This document shows, one piece after another, positions 18,286-34,805 of a stretch of DNA of 37,022 bases. This stretch comes from Elusimicrobiota bacterium. Lineage in GTDB: Bacteria > Elusimicrobiota > Endomicrobiia > Endomicrobiales > Endomicrobiaceae. The number at the start of each line of letters is the position of its first letter. The stretch's first letter is position 1. Below the pieces are notes generated by a model. That model was not told the origin of the DNA. It made no database searches and worked only from the letters and a program-made list of their open reading frames with translations. The stretch spans positions 1-37,022 of the forward strand of contig JAFXOV010000014.1 of NCBI GenBank assembly GCA_017528425.1, written 5' to 3'. A program made the position numbers and the translations under genes.

Positions 18286-21200
18286 CTATGCACTGGCCAA
18301 CATCTTTCTTATATTCTTCATTTCACCATCTAAGGTATTTTCAAGTAATACTTTTTCGAATGTTTCTTCATCCAATATTGGCAACAATCCAATTTCTCCG
18401 GATTTATAATTAAACAAACCATCATTTAGCTTTGCTAATACAACAGGATCCATGTTTAATCTATACACTAATGCTCTTCTAAATTCATCGGTTTTAATAA
18501 TATCTGCATATTTGGAATCCACGATAAACTCCGTAAGATCTCTATTTACTGATTTTCTGTATACCGGTATTGCGTTTTGCGGATCTGACGGATTTGCAAT
18601 ACAAACAAATACTTCTTGTCCCTTTTCCGGTTTTCCAATCTCTAAAGATATTTCATGTTTCGTTTCAGCAAAAGGAATTTCTTGTAACTTAGCAGATGCA
18701 ATATCTTCATCAATACTATCAACTTTTTCCGTAGATTTTTCCTTGGTATCAAGGGTTGTTATCGGTCTCATTTGAAGTATATAAATTTCATCTCCCACAA
18801 TTGAGAACTCAACATCTATAGGATATCCTACCGCATTTTCTAAAATAGAAAGATTTTCCGTCAATTTTTTTACCATTTTGGAATTCAATGCTCTTGTTTT
18901 TGCTTTCGATCCTACAGGAACTTTCTTTATTCCGCCATCGACATCCGTAACCAATTTAAATTGTTTATTTGCTACAGAATATTCTATTACTTCTCCGCTG
19001 TTCATATCCACTAAAATACTATCCGGAGTAAACATTCCGGATACCAAACCTTCCCCTTGTCCAAATAAAACATTGATTGTTGCATTTCCGTATTTGTTTC
19101 TGGTAAAAGCAACTCCTGATATTTCGGAATCAATCATTTCTTCAACCAAAACGGCAGGTTTTACAACTTGTCCGCTCGATATCATATAATCTATACATCT
19201 TTCCGCAAAGAAAGATTTCCAACATTTTCTTACATTATCATATACGTCCCCATATTTAACATTAAGACTCGTTTCACCCATACCCGCAAAAGCATTATTT
19301 GTAGCATCTTCTCCGACTCCCGAAGATCTTACGGAATATTTGCCATCAGGTTTTATAAATTTGCCCAGCAAGTGTTTTATTTCTTTTTCTTTATCCGAAC
19401 CTTTTAGTTTATCCGAATCTATTACTTCACAAATAGCTTTTGCAAGTTCCATTGCTCTTTCTTTATTTCTGTTTTTTATTGCTTTTTCAAATTCGGCTAA
19501 AAGTTTTTCCTGTCCTAAAGTTTTGAACAATTCGGGCATTACATTCACACCTATACCAATTCCACCCGGAACAGTAACACCCTCTCTGTCTTTTAACAAC
19601 TTAAACATTTTGGCAAGTTGTGAAGTTTTAGAGCCGAATATTCTCTCGTCAGATGCATTTTCTTCAAACAGACTTATTTCATCTCTTAAATCTACTTTAC
19701 CTTTTGTCATGTCTATAGCATTTACTTTCTTTTTGATGATAGAAATCAATGCCTGAAGAATATCTTTTTTTGCAAGTAAATCTTTTGATGTTTCATCTTC
19801 ACTGACAAAATATTTGTATATTTCGACATTTTTTATCATTGTAAGAATCTTTTGAACATTTGTAGTATCAAGACTTTCCATAGCAACAAAATCAACCAAT
19901 TGATTAATAAATTGTTGCATAAATTCGCTCAACTTTTTCTTAATATCTTTTTCCATTTCTTCTATTTGCTTTTTTAAATCTTCTAAATCTTGTCTTACAC
20001 CTATCGTCTTTATGAAATTTAGTTTCTTTATCAATTCTTGCAATATGTTATATGCTATATTTACATTTTCAACTGTCTTAAGATTTTCTATAGCTTCGGA
20101 AATATTTTGTATTTTATCTTGTATGTAACCATCATTTAATTTATTTATTTTATTTTTTACTGTTTCCGGCATATCATCGGAAAATAAAGAATCCAAAACC
20201 TGTGTTGTTTTAACGTTACCTATTACCTGAAAATATACATATTCTACAAATCTGTTTATATTTTCATCCGTTGAATGTTGTTTCATAAAATCTATAACGG
20301 CTTGTGCGTCATCAGAATTAATATAATTTTGTAATTCATCCAACAAAGCAACATCTATATCGTCAAACAACAAAACCATTCCGGTTTCTCCGTTCATAAG
20401 AACTCTTGTACCTTCTTTTAACGTTTTTCTTGCTGTTTTTACTTTTCTTACCTGAAACTGATTATCAAGAAGTTCTACTTCCCCGGAAGGTAAATAGTAC
20501 AACGTTTCTATTTCTTTATCTGCCCATGTTGCACCGCTAAGCACAACAGAAGGTTTCTTTAATTCTCTTGTTGTAATAGCAGCATGGCTTAATACTCCTC
20601 CGCCTGTGGTTATTATACCTCTTGCAGTTTCTATATCTTTTATATCATCAGGCGTGGTATAAGGTACAACCAGTATACTGTTCTCATTAACCTTTTTCTT
20701 TTCGAAAGTAATATTTCCGACAACACTTACACCTGTTCCGTCAGACGTTGGAGTACTTTGAATTTTAGGGCTTTCAATTGTTTGAACATCTCTTGTCAAT
20801 AAATTTTTTGTTCTCTGCCTTTCTCGTGAATCTACCCATTCTTGCTTGGAAATTTTGTAACCTTCTTTGCCCAATATTTGTATTAACTGTTCACTTGTAA
20901 GTTTTTGTCTTGTTTTGGTTGTTACAAGTTCAGCTATTGCATATTTTGTTCTTTTTGTATTAGGATCCATTATCGCTCTTACAAACAATTTGTCACCGTT
21001 TTTTAATTCCATAACAGAACTTACAACTTCATAACTGCCGATATCAGCCAAAATTCTTGTATCAAACTCATAATTATTTACCAAATTAACAATTCTTGCC
21101 TGTTGCGATGTTTCAGTGAAGTTTGTATTTATTTCATCTATCATTGAATTAACTATATCATAACCTTCGTTTCTTACTAAAATGCCATCCTCATTTAAAA

Positions 21201-24200
21201 TCAATCTGCCTTCCGCAAAAGCTCTTTCTATCGGTTCATTAAAATATTTATTGACAAAATTCGGATCTTCCAACATTTTTGTGAGAGATTTTTCTGTATC
21301 TGTAGGTAACAAATCACAACCTAAATAAGATAACATCATATTTAAACCTTCAGGATGTAATTCTCTTTTTTCCGGCAATTTGGCTAAATTTTCACCTCTC
21401 GGACCATACCCGTATGCTCTCCAACCGTAATTATTTATATTGACGCCATACCAAGACTCTCTCCTTTTTGCTTTCGTTAACCATAATTCAAAAACATGTT
21501 TGTATTGTGCCTCTATAGTTCTATGCCAATTTTTCAAATCATAATCAACATTTGTAGAAAACTTGAATATTTCAACAACATGCGTTGCAATATCTATTAA
21601 GTCCGTTGAATCACTCAATCCAAAATCTTTGTTAAGAGTGGCTTTTAATCCATATGATTCATAACCATCCGAATATTGAGTATCTGTATCAACATGAAAA
21701 CCCAAATATTCAAGAATTTCTTTAAAATATCTTATTCTTTCTTTTTTACCTATATCTTCACCGAGCATCGGTCTTTCTCTGTAAAATATACTTATACCTC
21801 TGTCAACATCACCAAAATTAAAGAAAATATCTACACTGTGAGCATTTAATCTTGTTGTCCATACAACAAGATCGTCCTTACAAACAAAATCATCTATTTT
21901 GTCATACGGCAATTTTCTCGTAGCCAACTTAGATAAAAATCTTATGATGTTCGAATTTATGGTATTTGACAAATTGTAACCGCTTACCGTAGATTGTTGA
22001 CTTGCAGTCATAATTTGTATCGGTCTGGAATTTGCTCTTTCCGTCGAATGACGAATATTTGCCGAGTTTGCGTTTGCAACTCTTGTAGAAATTGCGTCCA
22101 AATCTTTCATTCCCTGTTTAAAATCTTGTATCGATGTTTGGTGAACCGCATTTATAAGAGTATGTATTTCTTTTATGTCTTTTATACCGTCAACCGTCCA
22201 ATTTGATAATTTCAATAACAAAGAATTCCTTCTTGTTTGTTTCTTTCTGTCTGCAGAAGACTCTTTTAAAGATTCTTTGATATTTTCCAATGCAATCTGT
22301 GCAGCATCTCCGTGTTCTTTATTTATTTTCTTCATTTCATCTATCATAGCTTGTAACTCACTCAATAATTCCGCCATACTTTTGTCATAATTTTTAGAAT
22401 CTTCTATTTTCCCCATTAAAGAAAGAACCGAGGTATTATACTGCAATATCTTTTGTAAAAGTTCAAATTGAATCAATACTTCTCCAACCTCACTGTTATT
22501 CATATCCGTTTCACCTTCTATTTTAGTCATTACTGGTTTTCTGTAAGTTAATAACAAATTGTTATCTGTTCTGTCATCCCATACACCAAATCTTTCGGAA
22601 GAAAGCTGTGCTCGTTCAAACAAATCTTGGGGCAAAAGTTTTATTAACGGTGTAAAATTATATTCATAATAAAGATTTATATTTTTTATACCTACATTAC
22701 TCATATATAAATATATAGGAATATCAAAATTATTAGCCAACATTCTTACATTTTCAAAATCTATAGGCACATCTTTTATTACATTGCTATATACCCCATC
22801 AGACACAATATTTAAAAGCAGAATCACAGCTCTTTTTCTTTTATTAATATCTGCAGTTTCGTCGTTTGCCAAGGAAACTAATCTATCTATAATGCTATAA
22901 GCAAGTTGTTTTGTTTTTGGATTTTCGATCCTGTTCATTGATCTTCCACCCTTCTTAACAGTTTCACTGGTTTCTTCCGAAAAAGCATATGCAATTATCC
23001 TAACGGGATTTACATATTCTATAGATTCCAAAATCATATCTGCTAATTGCTCGGCATCATCGGAAATAAAATCCTCATTGAGAAAATCTATACTGAATGT
23101 CGTTCTGTTTTGTCTTGCGGCATCTATAACAATTTCCAACGTTTCAAGATTAAACCCGACTCCGTCTTGTTTACTTTTGTTATATTTGTATTGATTTGAT
23201 GTATTAAACAGACTCTCATATATACTGACATCCTGCGGTCTTACAAGAGTAAGATATCTGAAAATATCCAAACACTGTTTTTTTCTGTTTTGATATTCTT
23301 CAGAATTTTCATCTTGAATTTGTTTGGATGATATAGGTGCATATATATGTAAAGCTAAATTTATCAACATTTGTACGACTTTTTTATTGAAGGAATCCGA
23401 ACTAATATCAGAATCGTTAAATTGAGGCTGTACAAGTAATATAAGTTGAGAAAGCAGAGAATCAAAATTTGTTTTATCCGGATTGTCATATTCATCAATC
23501 AAAACTTGCTCTAATTGATCTAAGTTAAAAGTTCTCGAATTTAAGTCCCTAACTTCCGAAAGTGTTTTTTCGCAAATTGATAATAATACTTTTATTATTT
23601 CAGAAGAAATGCTCTTATCCGTATCTTTTAATTTCAGAGTTTCTTTCAACAATAAATCAAGTTGGTATTCCAACAGAACTATATTCTTATCATTTATTTT
23701 GTCGGCAATTTCTTCAATATTAGAAGCTATATCGGTAAAAGTTTTTCCGGCAGTTTCATCTGTTATAACGGAAGCTACATCTCTCAACTTTTCTGCATTT
23801 TCAGTTAAACTTTTCGATAAGTTTTCGTTAATTTGTTCTTTAGAAAAAACAGCAAAATAATATTCTTTTAATCCATCATATCCTTTCAATTCATTTTTAA
23901 TAGCAAAAGGAATTTCTTCATCTGCTGATACAAGCCCTCTATTTACAAGCTTATCCACAATATACTGAATAAAATCCGGACTTACCGATCGGCCAAAAGA
24001 CATCAACATTCCCATTTCAGATAATACTGTATTTTCGTCTCTGTCTTCTAATTCGTTATCCTCGAAAAACAGAGAATCAATTATTGAATAAAATAACATC
24101 CTATCTGAATTTCTAATATCCACAAGCTTAAGGAAAGGTACTAAAATATATATTAAAACTTTAGTTAAATAAACATTCGAATCAAAACTTTTAATAAGAT

Positions 24201-27200
24201 TTTGTTCCAAACAAAATTTTCTGAGTTTACCATAAACCGTATCTTCTTTATAGTATTGTCCGTATTCATCTTCAACTTTTATTTGAATATTATAATTTTT
24301 CTTATGATTTTTCTTTAAAAATTTAATAAGTTCATATATTTGTTCAACAACAATAGCATATTTCCTGCTAACATCTTCCGGCAAATTCGATAAATTTTCC
24401 ATTATTTCTTTTAATTCATCATAAAATGTCATACCGGAAAGAGCCTGTATGGCATTATCGATTGCTGCTTGATCTACCATCAGTTTATTTTTTTGATCTG
24501 TTTTTTGTTCTAAAAAGTCAGTTTTTTCAAAAGAAGGTAATGTTGTTATTGCTCTTCTTTGCAAAACAAATATTTTACCGTTTCCGTCTATGGCAAATTC
24601 TATATCTACAGGATATCCGGCATCTTCTTCCAATATATTTGCTGTTTCTTGTAATTGTTTTATTGTTTCTTCATCCAAAATTCTTTCAATTCTTTCTTCA
24701 TCTGTGATTTTGGCTACTCTTGTCCCGCCTTGCTCTTTTTCTTCTATCTTTATCATATTGTTTAAAGCTCTGCGGTATTCTATTCTTCCGTCAGATGCTC
24801 TAACAGTTACATGATCAGGAGTTATTCTCCCGGAAACAAGCCCCTCACCTAATCCCAAAACACCTTCCATCGTTAAATTGCCGCTATTATCCCTGGTGAA
24901 CACTACTCCTGCTTTTTTTACATCAACAACCATTTCCTGTATTAACAGTGCAGGTTGAACAACAATGCCGTTTTTAATCATATCTTCTATACAAGTTGTT
25001 GTAAAGAAAGATTTCCATCCTTCTTTTACACTTGCATAAACATCATCTCTACCTACATTTAACATTGTTTTTGCCATTCCGGCAAAAGCATGATTTTCTC
25101 CGTCTTCACCTACTCCCGAAGATCTAACGGCATATTTTTTACCGCTATCCAATTTAGAACCCAAATATGCTTCCAATTCTTCGTCATCTAAATTTTCAAT
25201 AAAACTTGATATTCTTTTTCCTATCTCGATTGCTTTTCCTCTGTTTTTCTCTTTTATTGCATTTTCAAAATCTTTCATCTGTTTCGGATATTGAGAAATG
25301 CCATTATGTTCAAAAAAGATTCTTAGCACATCTTTACTTATACCTATTCCGTCGGGTATACCCGCAATTGATATTTCTCTATCTTTAAATAATCTTGCAA
25401 GTTTTGCAAGTTCGGTTGTCTTTGTTCCGTACCTTACAACATCTTTTGCTCTTATATCTTCAAAATCTCTTATTTCCGTTTCGTAATCTATACCTTTTTC
25501 CAAACTTATTATTTTATCTATTTCGAAAATCAAACTTGCCATTTCCGAAATACTGTCAAGTTTCCAAACTATTGCTTTTTCTCTTATTTTTATCAACTCA
25601 TCTTTATCATCTTCGGATACATTAGTTTTAGACAATATTTCTTTAGCTTGCTTAACCATTCCTTTAACTTCTTTTGCTATTTGTGAACGTGCAGCTTCTC
25701 TGTCCGCTGTAACAATTTCCGACAATTTTCTCTTTTCTTCCGCAATTTCATCGTCAGTTAAAGAATACTGTAATGCATCTAATTCCTGTTCTATAAACTT
25801 TATTACGGCAAGTCTTATACTTGCATCTTTTATATTCTTCTCGTTTTCAATATATATTTTTAATGCTTTTATTTTCTCACCCGTATACACCTTTACCAAT
25901 TCGGAAATTTTTTCTTTTATTTCCGGGCCTTCCCAAGCCAATAAGAACTGTGTTATTTTTTCTTTTTCTTTTTCGGTAACTACTTGCAGGAATATATATT
26001 CAACAACTTTTCTGATATTTTTATCTTGATAATGATTTTGTATATACCTGATTATAAAATCGGTATCATTGTTATCTATGGCTTTTTGTATTTCGGATAT
26101 AGCCGGAATATCCCTGTAAACCAACACTCTTCCGTTAAGTCCGTTAGCTAAAACAACATCGCCTTCTTCCAATACTAATCTGTGTTCGGATATTTTTTGT
26201 ATTTCGTAGTCTCCTTTTTGTTCGATAGGCGATTCTATGGAATAATAAGGAACTACCAATTTACCGTCAACCCATTGTCCGTTGGAAAGTATTGCAGTTT
26301 TATGATTTTCTCTTGCGGTAATATTTGCATGGCTTAACATTCCGCCGGTAGTTGTCATAATAGCACCTGCATTCATTATTGTCGCAACGTCTTCAGGTGT
26401 AGTATAAGAAACAACCCACATAGTATTTTGATTAACATTAGCTTTCTTGTAAGTAATTCTTTCGGGAATATATCTGTCCGATTGTCCCGAAACACTCATA
26501 CCTCTTGTATATATCCCGTCTTTAGGGAACAAAATTCTTTCTTTTAATACGGTTAACGATTCTTTCTTTTCCGAAGCACTTCTCGGTTTTTGTTCTTTTA
26601 CGGCATAGCCGAACTCTTTTAATATTTTTATTAAATCTTTATAATCCAAATTTGTTCTGTTACCGTCAAAATCAACAAATTCAACATAAGCAAACTTTGT
26701 TCTTTTTCTTTCTTTATCAACAGCAGTTTTTACGGATAGCCATCCTTTACCATCCAATCTTAACAAACCGCTTAAAGCAACCATACCACCGATATAACCT
26801 TCGGTTTCAAAATTAAAATTGTCATAATCCAACAAATTAATAACCTGTGCTTGTCTTAATGAATCATCAACGTTTCTGTTAATAGCGCTCAACAATCTGT
26901 CTACACCGTCATACTTTTCGTTTCTTGCCAAAATACCGTTATCATCAATTGTAAGTTTACCTTTAACATATTCACTAACAATTTCCCATACATTTCTTTT
27001 ATCCGAACTTATCGATAAATAATCATAAACATCATCAAGCCCGACTCCTACACCTTTTTGGTCTATTTGTTTTTTTAAATTACCTAATACCGTGCTTCTT
27101 GTTTGCCACTCTTGTTTTAATGTAGATATTCTTTCAAAACCTCTCGGCATATTGGTGGAATTTTTCAATTTTGCAAAATCTTCAAGGCTATAAGAAGGAA

Positions 27201-30200
27201 TATCAAATTGATAATAACTATGTTTATCACTGTCGACATCGTTTCCTTCTATGTCGTAGTCCAAGTCCGTCACATCTCCAAGAATATTCAATGCTTGTTC
27301 AAAATATTTCGCATAATCAATTCCGTTACTTATTGCACCTTTCGGCAGCGAATACATTGCCGTAAAATTACATACTCCGTATGCATAAGTATCTGCGGAT
27401 ACTTTTGTGTCAATATTCGTTATATCAAAACCGACTTGCGAAAAAAGAGAAGCAAGCAAAAGAACTCTCATTGCATTTCCGTCTCCTCTTCCGGAATCAT
27501 TGAAAGTAACCCTTATCCCTTCATCAAGATCAACCATTATATCAACACTGTGAGCACCCAAACTTTTCGAATAAATAATTTTATTATCTTTTGAAACAAT
27601 TCTCACTCCGATTTTCAAAAAGGTAACCAAATTTAAAGAGGATACAAAATCTTCCATCTGTTTACTCATTCCGGTTCTTGAACAATCAAAGAAACTTAAA
27701 TGTTCGGTATCATTTTCTTTAAAGACATACTGATTTCCTATATTACTGAACTTTAATTTGCTCATTAAACTTCCTATGGCTGTTTGATGAACTGCATTTA
27801 TCAAAGTATGCAATTCGGTAATTTTATCCATATCCGCAACAGCCCATTTCTTTAAGCTGACCAAATCCGAAACCGTCGCTCTGTGAGAATAAAAATCTTT
27901 CTTCATTCTTTCCAAGGAAACTTTTGCTTTATCTGCTGCTTCTTCGTTTAAAACAGCAAAACTGTTTATCATTTCCTCTATAAAATAGAAAGAATCTTCT
28001 ATTGCATCTCTATTTGCTTTATTAATTTCAGATAAAGCCAAAATGTTGTTTTCAAGTACATCTTCAAGCGCTTCAAAATATAAAGCCGCATTGTTATTGT
28101 CTTCATCTGTTGCTTGTGATGATAAAAATTGTTTCTTTAATGACCTGAAATATTTTATTGCTTGTTGTTTTGCCCCCGAAACAGAAGCAGGAATTCTGTC
28201 AAGAAGCAATTGATACTCCGGAATATAAAGTCTTCTGTCGTATATTGCAGATTCTTCCTGTATGCTGTCAAACTCAATACCGATTGTATAATAAAATTCT
28301 TCCAAATCTTTATACGTTTTTATTTTATCTTTCAATTGTGCCGGAATATTAGCATAAGCCGCTTGTAAACTTTTAGGCGTCCATTGTGACCTGTTTGCAC
28401 CAAACTTATCTTGTTTTCTAAATTCGTTATATAGCCCTTTTATTAAAGACAATGATTCTTGTCTGTTTATATCGTACATAAACGAAATTATATCTAACAC
28501 CATTTCTTCATAACCGACATAACGAACATTAAGATTTCTTGTTACATAGCTCAACAAACTTTGTGAAGTTTCGGTACTTTCGATAAAAGCCATTATCGGC
28601 ACTAACATCTTTAATACTTTTGTATCTCTAAAGCAATCGTTATCTATAAACAAGAAAGCCAATTCGTTCATTTGCGTTGTAACAACTTCAATTTGCTCTT
28701 GTTTAGATAATGCTAAAGCCGCATTTAATTGTTCAAGAATTTTCGCATATTCTTCACTGTTAAAAATTTCATTTGAAGGATTATCTTGTTTTAAAAATTG
28801 AAGTCTTGATATTATATCACTTAAATACAAATTGTTGGTTTTTAAAATTTCTGCATTATCCGCAAACAATTTTATATTTTCTTCATCTAATAAAGGTTCA
28901 CTTTGTTCTTGTTGGGTTGAATTTTCTTTTCCTTCACAAATTTCATAAAAGCTTTTTGTCCACTCATACTCATCAATACCTCTTATAAACGGAGGCTTTG
29001 TTGCTTTACCGCTTTTATACAATGCTCTTATATATGCTTTTGCATATTCGTCAATTTCCCCGGAAGAAGATGATAGAAGCACTTCCAACACAGGAATAAA
29101 CCAAACAGCAAAAGAATCGTCTGTATCCATAATTTTATATACTTCATATTCCCATTCTGCAATACTGCCAAAAGAAAAAGGTGACGGTACGGGCAAAGCA
29201 AATTTTTTGTAATCCGTCATAGTTATGACAGAACCTTTATTTTTGTACAAAGAATCGAATATTTTATGAACACAGCCTATTTGTCCTGTCTTATAAAAAT
29301 ATTTTGCGCTATCCATCAACACCTCAAAATATCTCGTTGAGTTGTTTTTCTTGTCTGTGGCTTGTTTCAAAATATAATCAAAAACTTTATCAAACAATAA
29401 ATTGCCTTGCTCATCTCTTAAATATGCGGAAATATTCAATACAGGTTCCAATAAAAATACAAGATCAAAACTATTTGATTTTTTGTGATTTTCAGAAACA
29501 AAATTGAAAAGTTCTACAATTTTTTGTGTAATTGCATTTTTATCTTTTCCTATATTTTCGAATTCTTCAATAAAATCATTTCTTTCCTGTCTGTAACCAA
29601 GATACTTGTTTCTTGAAATATCTTCCAATGTTTCTATTATCTGATCTATCTCGGAATCTAAATTTTTGTCTTGAGATGTAGGATTTTGCATTAAGGTTAA
29701 AAGCAACTTATTTTCCATCTTAGCGGAAATAAGATTATATACGGAATGCGATATAGAAGATATTATGATGGCAGCAAAAATCGATTGCGGGAACACAAAA
29801 GAAGCAGTAATAAATACAGCTGTTAAAATCGTAGAAGGAATAAAGAAATCTCTTACATTTCTTACATTAACTCTATTGGAAAATAACTCTGCAATAAAAC
29901 TATTTTTTATTTCCCCTCCTTCAACTTTTTTATTCACTAAATTGTTTATCTTGTCTGCCAAAGGATGAGCAAACGAAAACCCGAATATTCCTATAATGCC
30001 GGTAACTATTGCAGGAACTATCGATGCGGGATTTGATACAATCATACCTATCACAATAAAAGGTATAAATCTAAAAATTGTTTCTTCTACGATAGGAGCA
30101 ATAACAATTTCATATACAGTCTCAAACGTTATCTTAGATTTTATGACTAAATTTTTTAACACTACCAAACTTTCTTTCTTTGGTAAAAGTCTTCTAAAGG

Positions 30201-32754
30201 CAAAATCTTTATCTCCTGTAGAAGAAACATATCCGCTTTTTAAAGTAAATGTTGTTTTTACCTTTGATAATGCCTTTTTCTTATTTATTTCATATATGGT
30301 TTCGTTTATTTTTTCCAATAATTCGGCAAGTTCTTGTTTAGATTGTTCGGAACCATCCAAAAGTTTCATATCGGATATTCTTCCTATCGACATATGAACG
30401 ATATTCGGAGTTTTATATTTGGTATCAAGACTCTTAAATATTGTTCTAAACTGTAACATCCTTTCTATTAAATCTTTATCGGTAATTTCGTATATTATCA
30501 CCCCATCCGGCATTAATTTTAATGTTCCGGCCATCGAAGTTCTGAAATTAACAAAATCTTCTCCCAAAACCTCAAGAACAGAAAAAATATCGGAAGATTG
30601 ATCTTGTCTTTCTACGAGAGAATCTATTTCTTGTTGTGTAGGTAAAGAATCGTATCCTATCGTCATATGTAACTGTTCAAATGGCATTAACTTAACAGCA
30701 TCTCCCGCAACATTTTTTAGTGGTTCAAGTATATATTTTGCAATTTTTTTTCTTGTAGCATTTGTCGGTTCCAACTCTACCGAAGGCTGAGCATATTTAT
30801 TTGTTGTTATCCTTTCTAACATCTGTCTTGTTCTTGCGGTATCAATCGATGAATAAGGTATAATCTCACCGTCACTAAAACGATATCTTGTGTTGCTTAC
30901 CATACCTTTGTTGGCATTATCTTTGTATTCAACATAAAATTCTGCTTTACCTTTAACATCATCGGATATTATATCCCAATTTAAAATTTCTACAGAGCCA
31001 TAAAAATCAGACTGTTTTGCTATTATATATTCTTTAACAAACTCCTTTATTCCATTTTTTATATCTTGTTTCGAATATTCTTCAAAAATCGTATTGTTAC
31101 TTGTTTCCAAGAATATAAGGTTCAATATTTTCGGAAAACTTACATTTAAAGGTTCTTGTGTTAACGGTTCCAAGTTTATCGTGTTTTTCAATATATTTGA
31201 GTAATATATTACATTGTCGATATAAATTTGTTTTGCTTGTTCTATCGGCTGTGTTATTTTCGGAGTAATTATTACATACGAAATTCTTTGTTGCTCAAAA
31301 ATTCTCTCCAAACCTCTGGTATGGAATCCACCGGTAACAACTAATTTTAGTTTCTTGTTGTTAAGATTTGTTTTTATTTGTTTTACAGCGGCATTGATAT
31401 CGTTAATAAACACACCATTATTTGTGTTTTTTTGTGTTATTAAGCAATCTGCAAAAATTTGGTCTCTCGTTATATTATTTTGGTGATACTTGGTCAACAA
31501 CTTTTTATAAGGCTCTAAATTCTTTATTATGTTTTCGGAAAAGTAGGAAGGCCAAACAGTTTTAAACAGTTCGTATCTTTTTTCAAATTTATAATATTCA
31601 TCTGCGGAAATATCAGCAGAAAAATATTGTTTTATCGTCGGAATAAAATCCGCTAAGAAAGCTACTTCTTTTTCATATTTTGTCCTTCCCAACTTAACAT
31701 AAAGTTCATTTATAAAATTTTCTTCTTCCTGAACCAACTTTATAGGGTTTATATTTTGATTAAACTCCAAATACGATAAAAAGTTTTCAAAATGAGCTAA
31801 TTTTAATTTTGCTGTTATGGAATATTGTTTGTTTAATGCTATCAAATCTGCTGAAATATCTTCCAAATTAGTGAAATTGTTACTGTTTTTTATTAAGGCA
31901 GAATATTGTTGATACGGCAATACATTTTTTACCTCGGAAATAAATCTGGTAAATTCCGTAATTACTCTTTTGTTGTTTATATCTTGTGCTTTATCCAACA
32001 ATGAAATGTATATTTTTATATTCGGATATTTATCCATAGACAAGTTTGAGGTGTCTGCCAACAATTTCAACTCACCATAAAAAGATTTTGCATCTACCTC
32101 TTTTTGTTTAAAGGATCTAATCAGTTTTTCAAGCTTTCTTGCCTGTCTGCTGGAATAGTCTCTTTTTATTTTATTTACTTCTTTTTCCATCTGAACACAA
32201 ACAGCATCTATTTCCGGCTGTAACGATAATATCGCACCCAACAATTTAATATTTTCTTTATAAAGATCTTCTTTTTCTATCCCGAGAACAAAATTCTTTT
32301 TGTTGTTCATAATGGAATAATATTCGGTTCCGCTTAACTTACCGGAATCTATTAATCCTTCCAAAACTTTTGTTCCGTTTTTGTTATTGTTAAACGCCGA
32401 AAGCCACGATGTATCTACAGTTTTAAAAGCGCCTTCCAAATAAACATTTTTCAAATTGTAAGTATTATCTATATATCCTATTATAGAAGCTATTTTTCTT
32501 TGTGTTTCCGCATGACAATGCAAATCTTGTATATTTATAATGATATCTTCACTGTCAAAATATTTTGCCGAAGTTATTTTTCCCAAAGATGTAGGTATTA
32601 TAGGGTTATCGAAATTTATATTTTCTATTGCAGGCATACTTGATCCTATGGATGCAAAAGCGGAATTACCGAATACACCTGAAATAAGAAAAGTTATTGA
32701 AGTAAAAACAGCAACTGATTTTTTAAAATTAAGTTTATTAAGAAGTTTTTTCAT
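18286..32754 (-). CDS. Giant (~4,822 aa) membrane-linked protein with 2H phosphoesterase-like, CPBP protease and two dikinase modules
   Basis: No stop interrupts 14.5 kb. The start at 32754 follows GGAGAA; an upstream TTG lies inside that site. Residues 1-34 form a Sec signal ending AFA. An N-terminal domain has QDLHCH (H79) and TGGFHT (H478), possibly ChaN/TraB-like. HMTIG (H696) and HMSIG (H787) match the paired HxT/S motifs of 2H phosphoesterases. EETIFR (890-895), FSFAH (926-930) and HSVYN (1003-1007), within hydrophobic helices, are the CPBP/CAAX protease motifs. After a helical stretch come two modules: LHTLINAVHQT (H1649; H3531), AHSVDI (H1735; H3639), phosphohistidine domain (GGMLSHANITARE, H2142; GGGVLSHAAITTRE, H4057) and ATP-grasp PPDK-type domain (VRSSGVGED, R2544; R4476; ending LQRRAIT / LQMRPIT). 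The PEP-binding barrel is absent. It probably transfers ATP phosphate via His to an unknown acceptor. Motifs are seen; activity is inferred. Confidence 0.85.
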   Translation of the reverse strand: MKKLLNKLNFKKSVAVFTSITFLISGVFGNSAFASIGSSMPAIENINFDNPIIPTSLGKITSAKYFDSEDIIINIQDLHCHAETQRKIASIIGYIDNTYNLKNVYLEGAFKTVDTSWLSAFNNNKNGTKVLEGLIDSGKLSGTEYYSIMNNKKNFVLGIEKEDLYKENIKLLGAILSLQPEIDAVCVQMEKEVNKIKRDYSSRQARKLEKLIRSFKQKEVDAKSFYGELKLLADTSNLSMDKYPNIKIYISLLDKAQDINNKRVITEFTRFISEVKNVLPYQQYSALIKNSNNFTNLEDISADLIALNKQYSITAKLKLAHFENFLSYLEFNQNINPIKLVQEEENFINELYVKLGRTKYEKEVAFLADFIPTIKQYFSADISADEYYKFEKRYELFKTVWPSYFSENIIKNLEPYKKLLTKYHQNNITRDQIFADCLITQKNTNNGVFINDINAAVKQIKTNLNNKKLKLVVTGGFHTRGLERIFEQQRISYVIITPKITQPIEQAKQIYIDNVIYYSNILKNTINLEPLTQEPLNVSFPKILNLIFLETSNNTIFEEYSKQDIKNGIKEFVKEYIIAKQSDFYGSVEILNWDIISDDVKGKAEFYVEYKDNANKGMVSNTRYRFSDGEIIPYSSIDTARTRQMLERITTNKYAQPSVELEPTNATRKKIAKYILEPLKNVAGDAVKLMPFEQLHMTIGYDSLPTQQEIDSLVERQDQSSDIFSVLEVLGEDFVNFRTSMAGTLKLMPDGVIIYEITDKDLIERMLQFRTIFKSLDTKYKTPNIVHMSIGRISDMKLLDGSEQSKQELAELLEKINETIYEINKKKALSKVKTTFTLKSGYVSSTGDKDFAFRRLLPKKESLVVLKNLVIKSKITFETVYEIVIAPIVEETIFRFIPFIVIGMIVSNPASIVPAIVTGIIGIFGFSFAHPLADKINNLVNKKVEGGEIKNSFIAELFSNRVNVRNVRDFFIPSTILTAVFITASFVFPQSIFAAIIISSISHSVYNLISAKMENKLLLTLMQNPTSQDKNLDSEIDQIIETLEDISRNKYLGYRQERNDFIEEFENIGKDKNAITQKIVELFNFVSENHKKSNSFDLVFLLEPVLNISAYLRDEQGNLLFDKVFDYILKQATDKKNNSTRYFEVLMDSAKYFYKTGQIGCVHKIFDSLYKNKGSVITMTDYKKFALPVPSPFSFGSIAEWEYEVYKIMDTDDSFAVWFIPVLEVLLSSSSGEIDEYAKAYIRALYKSGKATKPPFIRGIDEYEWTKSFYEICEGKENSTQQEQSEPLLDEENIKLFADNAEILKTNNLYLSDIISRLQFLKQDNPSNEIFNSEEYAKILEQLNAALALSKQEQIEVVTTQMNELAFLFIDNDCFRDTKVLKMLVPIMAFIESTETSQSLLSYVTRNLNVRYVGYEEMVLDIISFMYDINRQESLSLIKGLYNEFRKQDKFGANRSQWTPKSLQAAYANIPAQLKDKIKTYKDLEEFYYTIGIEFDSIQEESAIYDRRLYIPEYQLLLDRIPASVSGAKQQAIKYFRSLKKQFLSSQATDEDNNNAALYFEALEDVLENNILALSEINKANRDAIEDSFYFIEEMINSFAVLNEEAADKAKVSLERMKKDFYSHRATVSDLVSLKKWAVADMDKITELHTLINAVHQTAIGSLMSKLKFSNIGNQYVFKENDTEHLSFFDCSRTGMSKQMEDFVSSLNLVTFLKIGVRIVSKDNKIIYSKSLGAHSVDIMVDLDEGIRVTFNDSGRGDGNAMRVLLLASLFSQVGFDITNIDTKVSADTYAYGVCNFTAMYSLPKGAISNGIDYAKYFEQALNILGDVTDLDYDIEGNDVDSDKHSYYQFDIPSYSLEDFAKLKNSTNMPRGFERISTLKQEWQTRSTVLGNLKKQIDQKGVGVGLDDVYDYLSISSDKRNVWEIVSEYVKGKLTIDDNGILARNEKYDGVDRLLSAINRNVDDSLRQAQVINLLDYDNFNFETEGYIGGMVALSGLLRLDGKGWLSVKTAVDKERKRTKFAYVEFVDFDGNRTNLDYKDLIKILKEFGYAVKEQKPRSASEKKESLTVLKERILFPKDGIYTRGMSVSGQSDRYIPERITYKKANVNQNTMWVVSYTTPEDVATIMNAGAIMTTTGGMLSHANITARENHKTAILSNGQWVDGKLVVPYYSIESPIEQKGDYEIQKISEHRLVLEEGDVVLANGLNGRVLVYRDIPAISEIQKAIDNNDTDFIIRYIQNHYQDKNIRKVVEYIFLQVVTEKEKEKITQFLLAWEGPEIKEKISELVKVYTGEKIKALKIYIENEKNIKDASIRLAVIKFIEQELDALQYSLTDDEIAEEKRKLSEIVTADREAARSQIAKEVKGMVKQAKEILSKTNVSEDDKDELIKIREKAIVWKLDSISEMASLIFEIDKIISLEKGIDYETEIRDFEDIRAKDVVRYGTKTTELAKLARLFKDREISIAGIPDGIGISKDVLRIFFEHNGISQYPKQMKDFENAIKEKNRGKAIEIGKRISSFIENLDDEELEAYLGSKLDSGKKYAVRSSGVGEDGENHAFAGMAKTMLNVGRDDVYASVKEGWKSFFTTTCIEDMIKNGIVVQPALLIQEMVVDVKKAGVVFTRDNSGNLTMEGVLGLGEGLVSGRITPDHVTVRASDGRIEYRRALNNMIKIEEKEQGGTRVAKITDEERIERILDEETIKQLQETANILEEDAGYPVDIEFAIDGNGKIFVLQRRAITTLPSFEKTDFLEQKTDQKNKLMVDQAAIDNAIQALSGMTFYDELKEIMENLSNLPEDVSRKYAIVVEQIYELIKFLKKNHKKNYNIQIKVEDEYGQYYKEDTVYGKLRKFCLEQNLIKSFDSNVYLTKVLIYILVPFLKLVDIRNSDRMLFYSIIDSLFFEDNELEDRDENTVLSEMGMLMSFGRSVSPDFIQYIVDKLVNRGLVSADEEIPFAIKNELKGYDGLKEYYFAVFSKEQINENLSKSLTENAEKLRDVASVITDETAGKTFTDIASNIEEIADKINDKNIVLLEYQLDLLLKETLKLKDTDKSISSEIIKVLLSICEKTLSEVRDLNSRTFNLDQLEQVLIDEYDNPDKTNFDSLLSQLILLVQPQFNDSDISSDSFNKKVVQMLINLALHIYAPISSKQIQDENSEEYQNRKKQCLDIFRYLTLVRPQDVSIYESLFNTSNQYKYNKSKQDGVGFNLETLEIVIDAARQNRTTFSIDFLNEDFISDDAEQLADMILESIEYVNPVRIIAYAFSEETSETVKKGGRSMNRIENPKTKQLAYSIIDRLVSLANDETADINKRKRAVILLLNIVSDGVYSNVIKDVPIDFENVRMLANNFDIPIYLYMSNVGIKNINLYYEYNFTPLIKLLPQDLFERAQLSSERFGVWDDRTDNNLLLTYRKPVMTKIEGETDMNNSEVGEVLIQFELLQKILQYNTSVLSLMGKIEDSKNYDKSMAELLSELQAMIDEMKKINKEHGDAAQIALENIKESLKESSADRKKQTRRNSLLLKLSNWTVDGIKDIKEIHTLINAVHQTSIQDFKQGMKDLDAISTRVANANSANIRHSTERANSRPIQIMTASQQSTVSGYNLSNTINSNIIRFLSKLATRKLPYDKIDDFVCKDDLVVWTTRLNAHSVDIFFNFGDVDRGISIFYRERPMLGEDIGKKERIRYFKEILEYLGFHVDTDTQYSDGYESYGLKATLNKDFGLSDSTDLIDIATHVVEIFKFSTNVDYDLKNWHRTIEAQYKHVFELWLTKAKRRESWYGVNINNYGWRAYGYGPRGENLAKLPEKRELHPEGLNMMLSYLGCDLLPTDTEKSLTKMLEDPNFVNKYFNEPIERAFAEGRLILNEDGILVRNEGYDIVNSMIDEINTNFTETSQQARIVNLVNNYEFDTRILADIGSYEVVSSVMELKNGDKLFVRAIMDPNTKRTKYAIAELVTTKTRQKLTSEQLIQILGKEGYKISKQEWVDSRERQRTKNLLTRDVQTIESPKIQSTPTSDGTGVSVVGNITFEKKKVNENSILVVPYTTPDDIKDIETARGIITTGGGVLSHAAITTRELKKPSVVLSGATWADKEIETLYYLPSGEVELLDNQFQVRKVKTARKTLKEGTRVLMNGETGMVLLFDDIDVALLDELQNYINSDDAQAVIDFMKQHSTDENINRFVEYVYFQVIGNVKTTQVLDSLFSDDMPETVKNKINKLNDGYIQDKIQNISEAIENLKTVENVNIAYNILQELIKKLNFIKTIGVRQDLEDLKKQIEEMEKDIKKKLSEFMQQFINQLVDFVAMESLDTTNVQKILTMIKNVEIYKYFVSEDETSKDLLAKKDILQALISIIKKKVNAIDMTKGKVDLRDEISLFEENASDERIFGSKTSQLAKMFKLLKDREGVTVPGGIGIGVNVMPELFKTLGQEKLLAEFEKAIKNRNKERAMELAKAICEVIDSDKLKGSDKEKEIKHLLGKFIKPDGKYSVRSSGVGEDATNNAFAGMGETSLNVKYGDVYDNVRKCWKSFFAERCIDYMISSGQVVKPAVLVEEMIDSEISGVAFTRNKYGNATINVLFGQGEGLVSGMFTPDSILVDMNSGEVIEYSVANKQFKLVTDVDGGIKKVPVGSKAKTRALNSKMVKKLTENLSILENAVGYPIDVEFSIVGDEIYILQMRPITTLDTKEKSTEKVDSIDEDIASAKLQEIPFAETKHEISLEIGKPEKGQEVFVCIANPSDPQNAIPVYRKSVNRDLTEFIVDSKYADIIKTDEFRRALVYRLNMDPVVLAKLNDGLFNYKSGEIGLLPILDEETFEKVLLENTLDGEMKNIRKMLASA

Positions 32755-32763
32755 GTTCTTCTC

Positions 32764-32807
32764 CAAAAGAAAAATCCTGCTTTTATATGTACATAAAAGC
32801 AGGATTT
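32764..32807 (-). terminator. Terminator/attenuator hairpin directly before the giant gene
   Basis: AAATCCTGCTTTTAT (32772-32786) and its exact reverse complement (32793-32807) form a 15-bp perfect stem with a 6-nt loop. On the minus strand the stem is followed by TTTCTTTT and then, within a few bases, the GGAGAA Shine-Dalgarno of the giant gene. The stem also encodes the last codons and stop of the upstream membrane protein. It looks like a rho-independent terminator that transcription must pass to reach the giant gene. Confidence 0.75.
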
Positions 32808-33343
32808 ATTCTATTTATATTAAAATTTAAAATATTATCATATAACTTTTTTATCGACGCATAAAACAGGAATATCATGCTCGAAAAACAAAAGATTTTA
32901 TCACAAAAGGCATAAAACTCCGTAGATAAACTTCCGTAATCATACAACAAAACATCGTAAACAACAACACTTCCGTTCTGTCCATACTGCAATTTCATTG
33001 ATTCATTCTGTATTTGTGAACCGGTAATAATAAAATCGTTAGTTTTGCACGGTAAACTTTTATTTTCTTCTTTTTGAGAGTCGGATGTTTTTGTTTTATC
33101 GGCAACTATTTTTGATGTTAAAGAAAAATTTATTTTCTCTATTTTATTTGCCACAAAAAACACTGCGGAAAAAACATCTTTTTGAATATCCGAAAAAGTC
33201 GATAAATCACTTGTGGTAATATTTGTTAACACAGGAGAAAAAACACAATTAAAAATTATCAAAAACGCCAACAACAAACCGATAACTTTAATTGTTATTT
33301 CGGACAAAACAAAACAATAGATGTTTTCCATATTTCTAATCAT
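32783..33343 (-). CDS. Small membrane protein of unknown function, upstream of the giant gene
   Basis: 186 residues; not recognised as a known family. There is one strong hydrophobic helix near the N-terminus (IKVIGLLLAFLIIFNCVFS, about residues 18-36) and another near residues 150-165 (FCFSSMIFLFYASI). A polar, Ser/Lys-rich middle of about 100 residues probably faces the periplasm if the N-terminus is cytoplasmic. AGGTG lies before the ATG at 33343, and an exact-consensus promoter sits just upstream. The gene ends 28 bp before the giant gene's ATG, and its last codons lie in the terminator-like hairpin. The two genes are therefore likely co-transcribed with partial termination between them. 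The product could be a membrane partner, anchor or regulator of the giant protein; this is context only. Confidence 0.7.
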   Translation of the reverse strand: MIRNMENIYCFVLSEITIKVIGLLLAFLIIFNCVFSPVLTNITTSDLSTFSDIQKDVFSAVFFVANKIEKINFSLTSKIVADKTKTSDSQKEENKSLPCKTNDFIITGSQIQNESMKLQYGQNGSVVVYDVLLYDYGSLSTEFYAFCDKIFCFSSMIFLFYASIKKLYDNILNFNINRINPAFMYI

Positions 33344-33535: not shown

Positions 33536-34111
33536 TTATATATTAAATTTATAACCTACATTAACAGATGTTACATTATATTGCAGGTTAATGTCATAAT
33601 AGTCAGATACACCACCTTTAGCCGATGAGAATATAAGTTCTACAAAAGCCATATCTTTTATCATTGTTCCAAAACCTGCTCCCAAATATAACCCATTATC
33701 TACAGAAGGTGTTTCTCCATAATTTTCATATCTTACCATACTTAAACCTAACTGACCTATTAAATATATACTTGTGAAAATATCGGATTCTAATTTTACC
33801 TCAGGTTTTACCGCTACATAAAGATTTGTTGTTCCGAATTTCACTTCGGAGTCCATTTTTGCAGCGGTATCAAAAACATAGTTTACACCAACACCTACGG
33901 ACAAATTATCTATTAATCCATAAAAAAATTCTGCTCCCAACATAAATGGTATATCCGTATTATATTGAGAAAAGTCTTCTGTGTAGTCAAAATTGAAATT
34001 ACTATTTACCCCTAAACCTAATTTTGCATTTATGGACATATCTCCTTTTTCTGCAAATACAGGCACTACCATTGCCGCTGCTAATATGAAAGTCAATAAA
34101 CTTTTTTTCAT
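33536..34111 (-). CDS. Outer-membrane beta-barrel protein (OmpW/OmpA-barrel-like), copy A
   Basis: 191 residues with a Sec signal peptide (MKKSLLTFILAAAMVVPVFA, cleavage after AFA-type VFA) and about eight amphipathic strands alternating with turns. Examples are LGAEFFYGLIDNLSVGVGVNY, LYVAVKPEVKLE and the terminal VNVGYKFNI. The pattern is that of a small 8-stranded barrel. The last residue is Ile rather than the usual Phe. It shares most strand sequences with the gene immediately upstream (34215-34805), for example GTTNLYVAVKPE and VDNGLYLGAGFGT, so the two are tandem duplicates. TAAAGGAGAA precedes the ATG. A terminator follows. The cargo, if any, is unknown; the role may be structural or porin-like. 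Confidence 0.8.
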   Translation of the reverse strand: MKKSLLTFILAAAMVVPVFAEKGDMSINAKLGLGVNSNFNFDYTEDFSQYNTDIPFMLGAEFFYGLIDNLSVGVGVNYVFDTAAKMDSEVKFGTTNLYVAVKPEVKLESDIFTSIYLIGQLGLSMVRYENYGETPSVDNGLYLGAGFGTMIKDMAFVELIFSSAKGGVSDYYDINLQYNVTSVNVGYKFNI

Positions 34112-34153: not shown

Positions 34154-34220
34154 ACTGATCAGCTGAGAACGAAAAAAACTTGTTTTCAGCTTATCACCTT
34201 ATCAGCTTATAAGCTTATAA
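34154..34220. repeat. Short repeat cluster (CAGCTTAT units) and weak hairpin between OMP genes
   Basis: GCTGAGAAC (34162-34170) pairs with GTTTTCAGC (34182-34190) with one G-U pair. It is followed by repeated CAGCTTAT/AAGCTTATAAGCTTATAAGC units that run into the last codons of the upstream OMP gene. There is no T-run after the stem on the minus strand, so it does not look like an efficient terminator, and both OMP genes may share a transcript. Confidence 0.5.
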
Positions 34221-34805
34221 GCTAAACCTATAACCTACGTTGATTGTTGTTGCCGTATATTGTATATCTGCAGAGGATCCTCCGTTATTGCGTTTTGCAT
34301 GACCGTTGGATGATGACAACACAAGTTCAACAAAAAATGCATCTTTTATTGTTGTTCCAAAACCGGCACCCAAATATAATCCGTTATCTACAGAAACAGA
34401 TCTGTTTTCCCAATCAATTCTATTAATTGCCAAACCTATTTGACCTATTAAATATATATTTGAAAAAACGTTCGATTCTATTTTAAATTCAGGTTTCACT
34501 GCCACATAAAGATTTGTTGTTCCTACTTTTAGATCATCAAAATAACCATCAGTTTCAGAATTAAAAATATAATTTGCTCCAACACCTAAGGATAAAATAT
34601 CGCTTAGTCCATAAAAAAACTCTGCTCCCAAAGAAAACGGATTTTTTACATCAAAACCAAGCTTATAATCATCCTCTACTATCATTTTAATACTATTACT
34701 TACACCTAATCCCAATTTTGCATCAATAGACATATCACCTTTTGCTGCAAATGCAGGTATTGTCATTACTACTGTCATCAATACGGTCAACAATCCTTTC
34801 TTCAT
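34215..34805 (-). CDS. Outer-membrane beta-barrel protein (OmpW/OmpA-barrel-like), copy B
   Basis: 196 residues with a signal peptide (MKKGLLTVLMTVVMTIPAFA, AFA cleavage) and a small beta-barrel pattern ending INVGYRFSL. It is a paralogue of the next gene: GDMSIDAKLGLGV, GAEFFYGLSD, VGTTNLYVAVKP and VDNGLYLGAGFGT are shared almost word for word. The extracellular-loop regions differ most, around residues 38-55, 75-85 and 165-180, as expected if surface loops diversify. AAAAGGAGG sits right before the ATG at 34805, giving very strong initiation, and a likely promoter lies 40-70 bp upstream. It is probably abundant and cotranscribed with copy A, 103 bp downstream. Confidence 0.8.
   Translation of the reverse strand: MKKGLLTVLMTVVMTIPAFAAKGDMSIDAKLGLGVSNSIKMIVEDDYKLGFDVKNPFSLGAEFFYGLSDILSLGVGANYIFNSETDGYFDDLKVGTTNLYVAVKPEFKIESNVFSNIYLIGQIGLAINRIDWENRSVSVDNGLYLGAGFGTTIKDAFFVELVLSSSNGHAKRNNGGSSADIQYTATTINVGYRFSL

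Follow-up and report, generated by a model that had tools for sequence, protein, structure and literature searches.

The window analysed here is a stretch of 37,022 bp that forms one whole contig of an endomicrobial genome (2.08 Mb, 64 contigs, 100% complete). A giant gene of 4,822 aa is encoded on its minus strand within the open frame 18286-32766, with the ATG at 32754 and GGAG upstream, and the plus-strand reading of 18286-32754 is full of stops. The uninterrupted frame of about 14.5 kb claimed in a preliminary description of this DNA was borne out. The host lineage is Elusimicrobiota/Endomicrobia and not the Omnitrophota mentioned there for very large genes, with Ca. Ruminimicrobiellum as the nearest relative; the closest head domains are those of Ca. 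R. bubulum (87% identity) and Ca. R. ovillum (82%). The features of the locus, from the C-terminus of the giant upward, are the following.

18286..32754, minus strand, giant gene, 4,822 aa (frame, intact orthologues, dN/dS)
18289..18324, minus strand, C-terminal tail EMKNIRKMLASA with the family motif [ILM]LxAA, shared by giants
18724..19641, minus strand, module 2 ATP-grasp (PPDK_N match), residues 4372-4677
20377..20757, minus strand, module 2 phosphohistidine swivel domain, H4057 (PF00391, E 9.4e-16; Foldseek match to the PPDK central domain)
20785..22485, minus strand, module 2 helical and alpha/beta domain, residues 3424-3990
24445..25473, minus strand, module 1 ATP-grasp (PPDK_N match), residues 2428-2770
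26185..26487, minus strand, module 1 phosphohistidine swivel domain, H2142 (PF00391)
26515..28092, minus strand, module 1 helical and alpha/beta domain, residues 1555-2080
29719..30117, minus strand, CPBP-like four-helix membrane segment, residues ~880-1012 (EETIFR, FAHP, HSVYN; hydropathy; PF02517 in one relative)
30145..30837, minus strand, 2H-like region, residues ~640-870 (H696MTIG, H787MSIG; motif conservation)
31219..32622, minus strand, head domain, residues ~45-512 (invariant Q76, D77, H79, E107, R430, H478)
32653..32754, minus strand, predicted signal peptide, residues 1-34 (net charge +5 before the hydrophobic core; cleavage suggested after AFA, between AFA and SIG)
32772..32807, minus strand, terminator-like leader hairpin between orf186 and the ribosome-binding site, with 16 pairs and a T-rich stretch after them
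32783..33343, minus strand, orf186, small membrane protein, candidate partner of the giant

Integrity and conservation of the giant gene

Full-length orthologues were found in five other genomes with frames of 4,718-4,936 aa, namely three of the same genus (G003, 4,935 aa; G006, 4,936 aa; G008, 4,846 aa) and one in each of two other genera (G020, 4,718 aa; G016, 4,821 aa). Two further orthologues (G001 and G029) are cut off by contig ends, and single-module relatives of 2,885-2,944 aa are present in other genera (G022, G026, and G033). The gene order obg - orf186 - giant - ychF - ribF was kept across the orthologue loci, with rplU-rpmA beyond obg wherever the contig was long enough. The search for orthologues and conserved neighbours proposed in the preliminary description therefore yielded both. 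In comparison with two congeners, dN/dS was 0.07-0.34 in all segments of the giant, values that are rough since synonymous divergence is about 1; it was lowest in the head (0.07-0.09), with 0.10-0.19 in the His and ATP-grasp domains. These ratios indicate that purifying selection acts along the whole giant and most strongly in the head.

The same data bear on the explanation that several genes were fused by an assembly or frame error, which had been named beforehand as a way in which the gene could prove spurious. Independent assemblies carry collinear giants of the same length, synteny is conserved, and nothing in favor of such an artefact was found among the giant and its orthologues. Together with the dN/dS of 0.07-0.34, this excludes an assembly join or a chance frame, and the probability left to the artefact is negligible.

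The adjacency of orf186 to the giant was kept in G003, G006, G008, G020, G016, G026, and G033. In most of the genomes examined this fast-evolving gene is the one directly before the giant, and its product is possibly a partner of the giant. Between orf186 and obg, two related small proteins resembling outer-membrane barrels are encoded in tandem (33536-34111 and 34215-34805, minus strand); the pair is absent at that spot in the G003 locus. A PADLOC run returned no defence family.

Domain architecture of the giant protein

All motifs claimed in the preliminary description were present in the order it gave, from the signal peptide through the two ATP-grasps. The motifs located in the N-terminal quarter are QDLHCH at residue 76, VYLEGA at 104, GGFHT at 475, HMTIG at 696, HMSIG at 787, EETIFR at 890, FAHP at 928, and HSVYN at 1003.

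The head was assigned to no Pfam family, and profile searches against Pfam and PDB gave nothing usable. Its residues Q76-D77-L78-H79, E107, R430, and GGFH478 were invariant in 53/53 heads. DUF1722 was considered and rejected, as its match, seen in 21 of the 53 heads, was weak and spanned no more than a portion of the helical region (residues 122-193 in the head of the window's protein, where it scored below the cut-off). An AlphaFold2 model of the head, based on an alignment with 53 natural relatives, reached a pLDDT of 88.8; the top Foldseek match of the head in PDB was EreC (E 0.24, probability 0.30) and ChaN was also listed (E 2.1), neither of them significant. The catalytic residues of EreC are E47, H50, E78, R261, and H289 (PMC7979712). 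The spacing of 28 between H79 and E107 of the head is the same as that between H50 and E78 of EreC, and the late invariant R430 and H478 resemble R261 and H289, an equivalence drawn from motif and spacing. In contrast to EreC and ChaN, the head has a much larger helical insertion. The head probably has an Ere/ChaN-like hydrolase core.

For residues ~640-870, claimed to be a 2H phosphoesterase, both HxT/S motifs were confirmed, but no 2H model or structure was significantly similar. The best HMM match was to PF13563 (E 0.051, in one orthologue) and the best PDB match had an E of 1.3. The paired HMTIG/HMSIG motifs were kept within the genus, and the second His is replaced by Asn in the G020 orthologue. 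The 2H assignment is accordingly a weak one. The claim of a CPBP segment fared better. Motifs of the EExxxR, FxxxH, and HxxxN types are all present on four hydrophobic helices, although PF02517 scored 12-13 bits on the giant, below the cut-off of 22.4, and passed it in the single-module relative G026 (23.2). Residues ~880-1012 are thus a probable CPBP segment, and protease activity of the giant is weakly suggested.

Two collinear modules of ~1,200 aa follow the CPBP-like segment. Each consists of a helical region, the motif HTLINAVHQT, an alpha/beta domain, a swivelling His domain, a linker, and a PPDK_N ATP-grasp. The HMM search proposed in the preliminary description recovered PPDK_N and PEP-utilizers in two copies each. 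PPDK_N matched two stretches (whole protein E 2e-98, 330 bits against a cut-off of 27), both above the cut-off when scored singly, and PEP-utilizers matched twice (E 1e-24; PF00391, 57.6 and 36.8 bits against 23.1). Both modules contain GGxLSH, with the phosphorylatable His, as do the orthologues examined, and nearly all module copies of the orthologues keep this His together with the GxK, RSS, DxE, and LQxR motifs of the ATP-grasp. The duplicated dikinase modules that had been claimed were thus found with their catalytic residues conserved, and by domain content the giant is a probable dikinase-type phosphotransferase.

In a Foldseek search with a model of the alpha/beta and His domains, only the His domain was identified, as the PPDK central domain; the alpha/beta domain had no confident match (best YbjN, E 0.15, probability 0.63). 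Searches of the full-length giant down to a lenient E of 10 found neither a carbohydrate-binding module nor a PEP/pyruvate TIM barrel, and the NCBIfam equivalog cut-offs were widely missed (best 326 against 598 bits). An ATP-grasp tree, built without ordinary PEP synthases, was largely unresolved.

A family of giants sharing head and tail, often preceded by a leader hairpin

The giant belongs to a large paralogous family with a shared head, a C-terminal tail and often a leader hairpin, which the preliminary description had missed. A head profile search of the genome contigs gave 325 relatives. The host genome has about 18 head copies and at least 16 giants; the 16 with complete C-termini (1,032-7,667 aa) sum to 53,174 aa or 7.7% of the genome. 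Of 295 genomes sampled from the phylum, 63 had the head, mainly those of the window's class, and it was absent from some endomicrobial genomes, including near-complete ones. In other classes the matches were weaker and sometimes more numerous, with up to about 80 matched head pieces per genome, and the distant head-bearing proteins (L186-L200) often start with a signal, after which an FWxxR(R/K)-like motif stands. The N-termini of nearly all giants are signal-peptide-like and positive-inside. Larger head-bearing frames of 12,027 aa (partial) and 11,814 aa were seen as well (L052, L057, and L058 in G038; L215 in G041). The host genome also encodes a head-only protein of ~500 aa without the tail (L060, C45:18134-19570); a PPDK_N gene for 859 aa lies ~1.5 kb away.

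The tail stands at the C-terminus of all 16 complete giants of the host genome, typically as (I/V)(K/R)x(I/M)L(S/A)(A/S)A, and the ~100 residues before it are mostly unrelated between siblings. The pattern was drawn from the host genome and then scored on the retrieved loci of other genomes, where it ended 20 of the 24 head-bearing frames with a 3' end compared to 4/293 other frames, and at least three of these four are fragments of head-family members. In the more distant classes the C-terminus usually ends in A rather than in LxAA. The tail looks like an address, processing, or turnover tag. Mimicry of the tmRNA tag was not supported, as the predicted tag ends in PIAA and shares with the tail no more than the last AA.

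C-terminal-processing proteases of the S41 class are known to act on nonpolar tails of this kind. The AA ending of the tail, the single S41 C-terminal-processing peptidase gene in the genome, the modular build of the giant and its CPBP motifs are all consistent with a polyprotein, in which the chain would be cut after export, by the CPBP or the C-terminal-processing protease, into head, 2H/CPBP, and dikinase pieces. No cleavage sites were identifiable in the giant, however, and we regard this reading as improbable.

The leader hairpin was present at the same place in seven of the eight orthologues examined (not in G022), with different sequence and compensatory changes, the latter at 4 of 11 consensus pairs. 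Hairpins of a similar kind lie in front of at least seven sibling giants and of none of the 14 other window genes examined, and in other genomes they were found at 31/52 head-bearing frames compared to 2/158 controls. The distance from the hairpin to the start codon is ~10-40 nt, so the transcript of the giant would usually start upstream and read through it. This leads us to infer that the hairpin acts by attenuation. Antitermination of the RfaH/LoaP type was not supported, the genome having a single NusG gene.

The central domains of the siblings comprise PGI with PGM, CBM48 with amylase, ABC1 kinases with an M48 peptidase, HD, calcineurin-like phosphoesterase, MFS, deaminase, and dikinases with LMW phosphatase. 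The TASHNP and DGDR motifs are intact in a sibling PGM that is fused to a PGI-like domain, as are the catalytic-looking motifs of a GlgX-like CBM48-GH13 region. The latter forms the core of a 2,309-aa giant of the host genome (L174, C19); it is embedded in this way almost only in the window's genus and elsewhere occurs as a standalone form of ~647 aa. The embedded PGI is found in several genera, and the standalone PGI is retained in relatives. On contig C18 of the host genome (L183 and L184), a standalone PGI gene adjoins the giant with the embedded copy, 46% identical. Taken together, these PGI genes show duplication. In the embedded copy GEPGT is changed to GTAGT, and the catalytic Glu has probably been lost. 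It follows that cargo is not always catalytic and that giants need not be active enzymes.

This loss of Glu, together with the C43 dikinase modules, which are degenerate in several motifs, would fit giants that are structural, with captured enzyme folds that build up an envelope coat or provide its binding surfaces. An adhesin or coat role has been proposed for the giant ORFs of Omnitrophota (PMC10066038). For the window's giant such a role is unlikely, as its His and ATP-site motifs are intact in nearly all orthologues and its dN/dS is low.

Proposed function and comparison with known systems

We consider it somewhat more probable than its opposite that the product of this endomicrobial gene is a genuine giant phosphotransferase and is exported. 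By homology, each ATP-grasp would take ATP and load phosphate onto the His of its module (H2142 and H4057), the swivel domain would pass the phosphate on to an acceptor, which the alpha/beta or beta-rich domain lying upstream in the module would hold, and AMP and Pi would be released as in water dikinases. The head and tail may be the common addressing parts of the family, for export, anchoring, or turnover, and the middle its interchangeable cargo. An alpha-glucan is a speculative candidate for the acceptor, suggested because the module order matches that of GWD and because siblings carry phosphoglucomutase, a PGI-like domain, and the GlgX-like CBM48-GH13. The 'envelope-associated phosphotransfer' put forward in the preliminary description appears reasonable on account of the duplicated dikinase modules, the Sec-type N-terminus, and the membrane-embedded CPBP-like segment.

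The periplasm is not known to contain ATP. Four CPBP helices, as counted in a hydropathy scan, would leave the dikinases on the head's side of the membrane. Exported dikinases would thus either act in the cytoplasm of another cell, or have a different topology, or be non-catalytic. If the modules work outside the cytoplasm, the source of ATP becomes a direct question, and the host cytoplasm would be the obvious one, as the lineage has links with ciliates of the rumen and flagellates of termites. Isotricha ciliates store amylopectin. The genus has been reported, as unpublished data, from picked rumen Isotricha ciliates (PMC11257099). Action in the ciliate cytoplasm would, speculatively, solve the ATP problem. 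A ciliate host cannot be a necessity, since similar giants were present in digester species; these have the same protein as well, which speaks against a role tied strictly to a host.

The ATP problem would also disappear if the N-terminal segment or the CPBP region anchored the giant with its dikinases facing the cytoplasm and its ATP. Several cargo domains of the family normally depend on ATP or cytosolic metabolites (dikinase, ABC1 kinase, and PGM), and the CPBP helix counts are uncertain. The N-termini, however, resemble Sec signals of the cleavable type, being positive on the N-side and having small residues at -1/-3, the number of helices in the hydropathy scan is even, and most siblings are without a CPBP match. 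We therefore hold an enzyme on the cytosolic side to be rather unlikely.

A wider proposal can be made tentatively. In Endomicrobia and other Elusimicrobiota, a 'head-cargo-tail' system of dozens of exported giants, defined by the Ere/ChaN-like head, the [ILM]LxAA tag, and often a terminator-like leader hairpin gating expression, may deliver paralogues of normally cytosolic and even ATP-using enzymes (dikinases, PGI-PGM, GlgX, and kinases), either to the surface of the cell or into a host protist. In this system, the giant studied here would be an exported dikinase of glucan type. This is possible rather than probable. Defined by their head and their C-terminal tag, and in many cases also marked by a leader hairpin, the giants of Elusimicrobiota become a tractable family.

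A survey counts Elusimicrobiota as one of the bacterial phyla in which huge proteins abound; it assigned no COG to those of Elusimicrobiota, and the parts of it that we consulted make no mention of a shared head, tail, or leader (PMC11573180). The giant ORFs of Omnitrophota are adhesin-like or unannotated and were proposed to form adhesins or coats (PMC10066038); the likeness of Omnitrophota and Elusimicrobiota giant ORFs to the window's giant is their very large size. The head-bearing family was not described in the literature found on Endomicrobia and giant genes. As far as our searches go, dikinase domains in tandem and in GWD-like order, within an exported giant that has its head, tail, and leader in common with others, appear to be undescribed.

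In PEP synthase, PPDK, and rifampin phosphotransferase, the ATP-grasp comes first. These enzymes share homologous ATP-grasp and swivelling His domains with the giant, whereas in the giant the His precedes the ATP-grasp. Assignment as a rifampin phosphotransferase was rejected (269 bits against a cut-off of 999, domain order reversed), and so was assignment as PEP synthase or PPDK, since no C-terminal PEP/pyruvate TIM barrel was found and the order is again reversed. In GWD, the order is substrate region, phosphohistidine domain, and C-terminal PPDK_N ATP-grasp. The modules of the giant are arranged in the same order as those of plant GWD/PWD, with the His upstream of the ATP-grasp. Unlike these enzymes, the giant is bacterial, has two modules per chain, is without a detected carbohydrate-binding module, and additionally carries the head, the 2H-like and CPBP regions, and the tail. 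Without claiming membership of GWD, we suggest that the giant probably works like a water dikinase.
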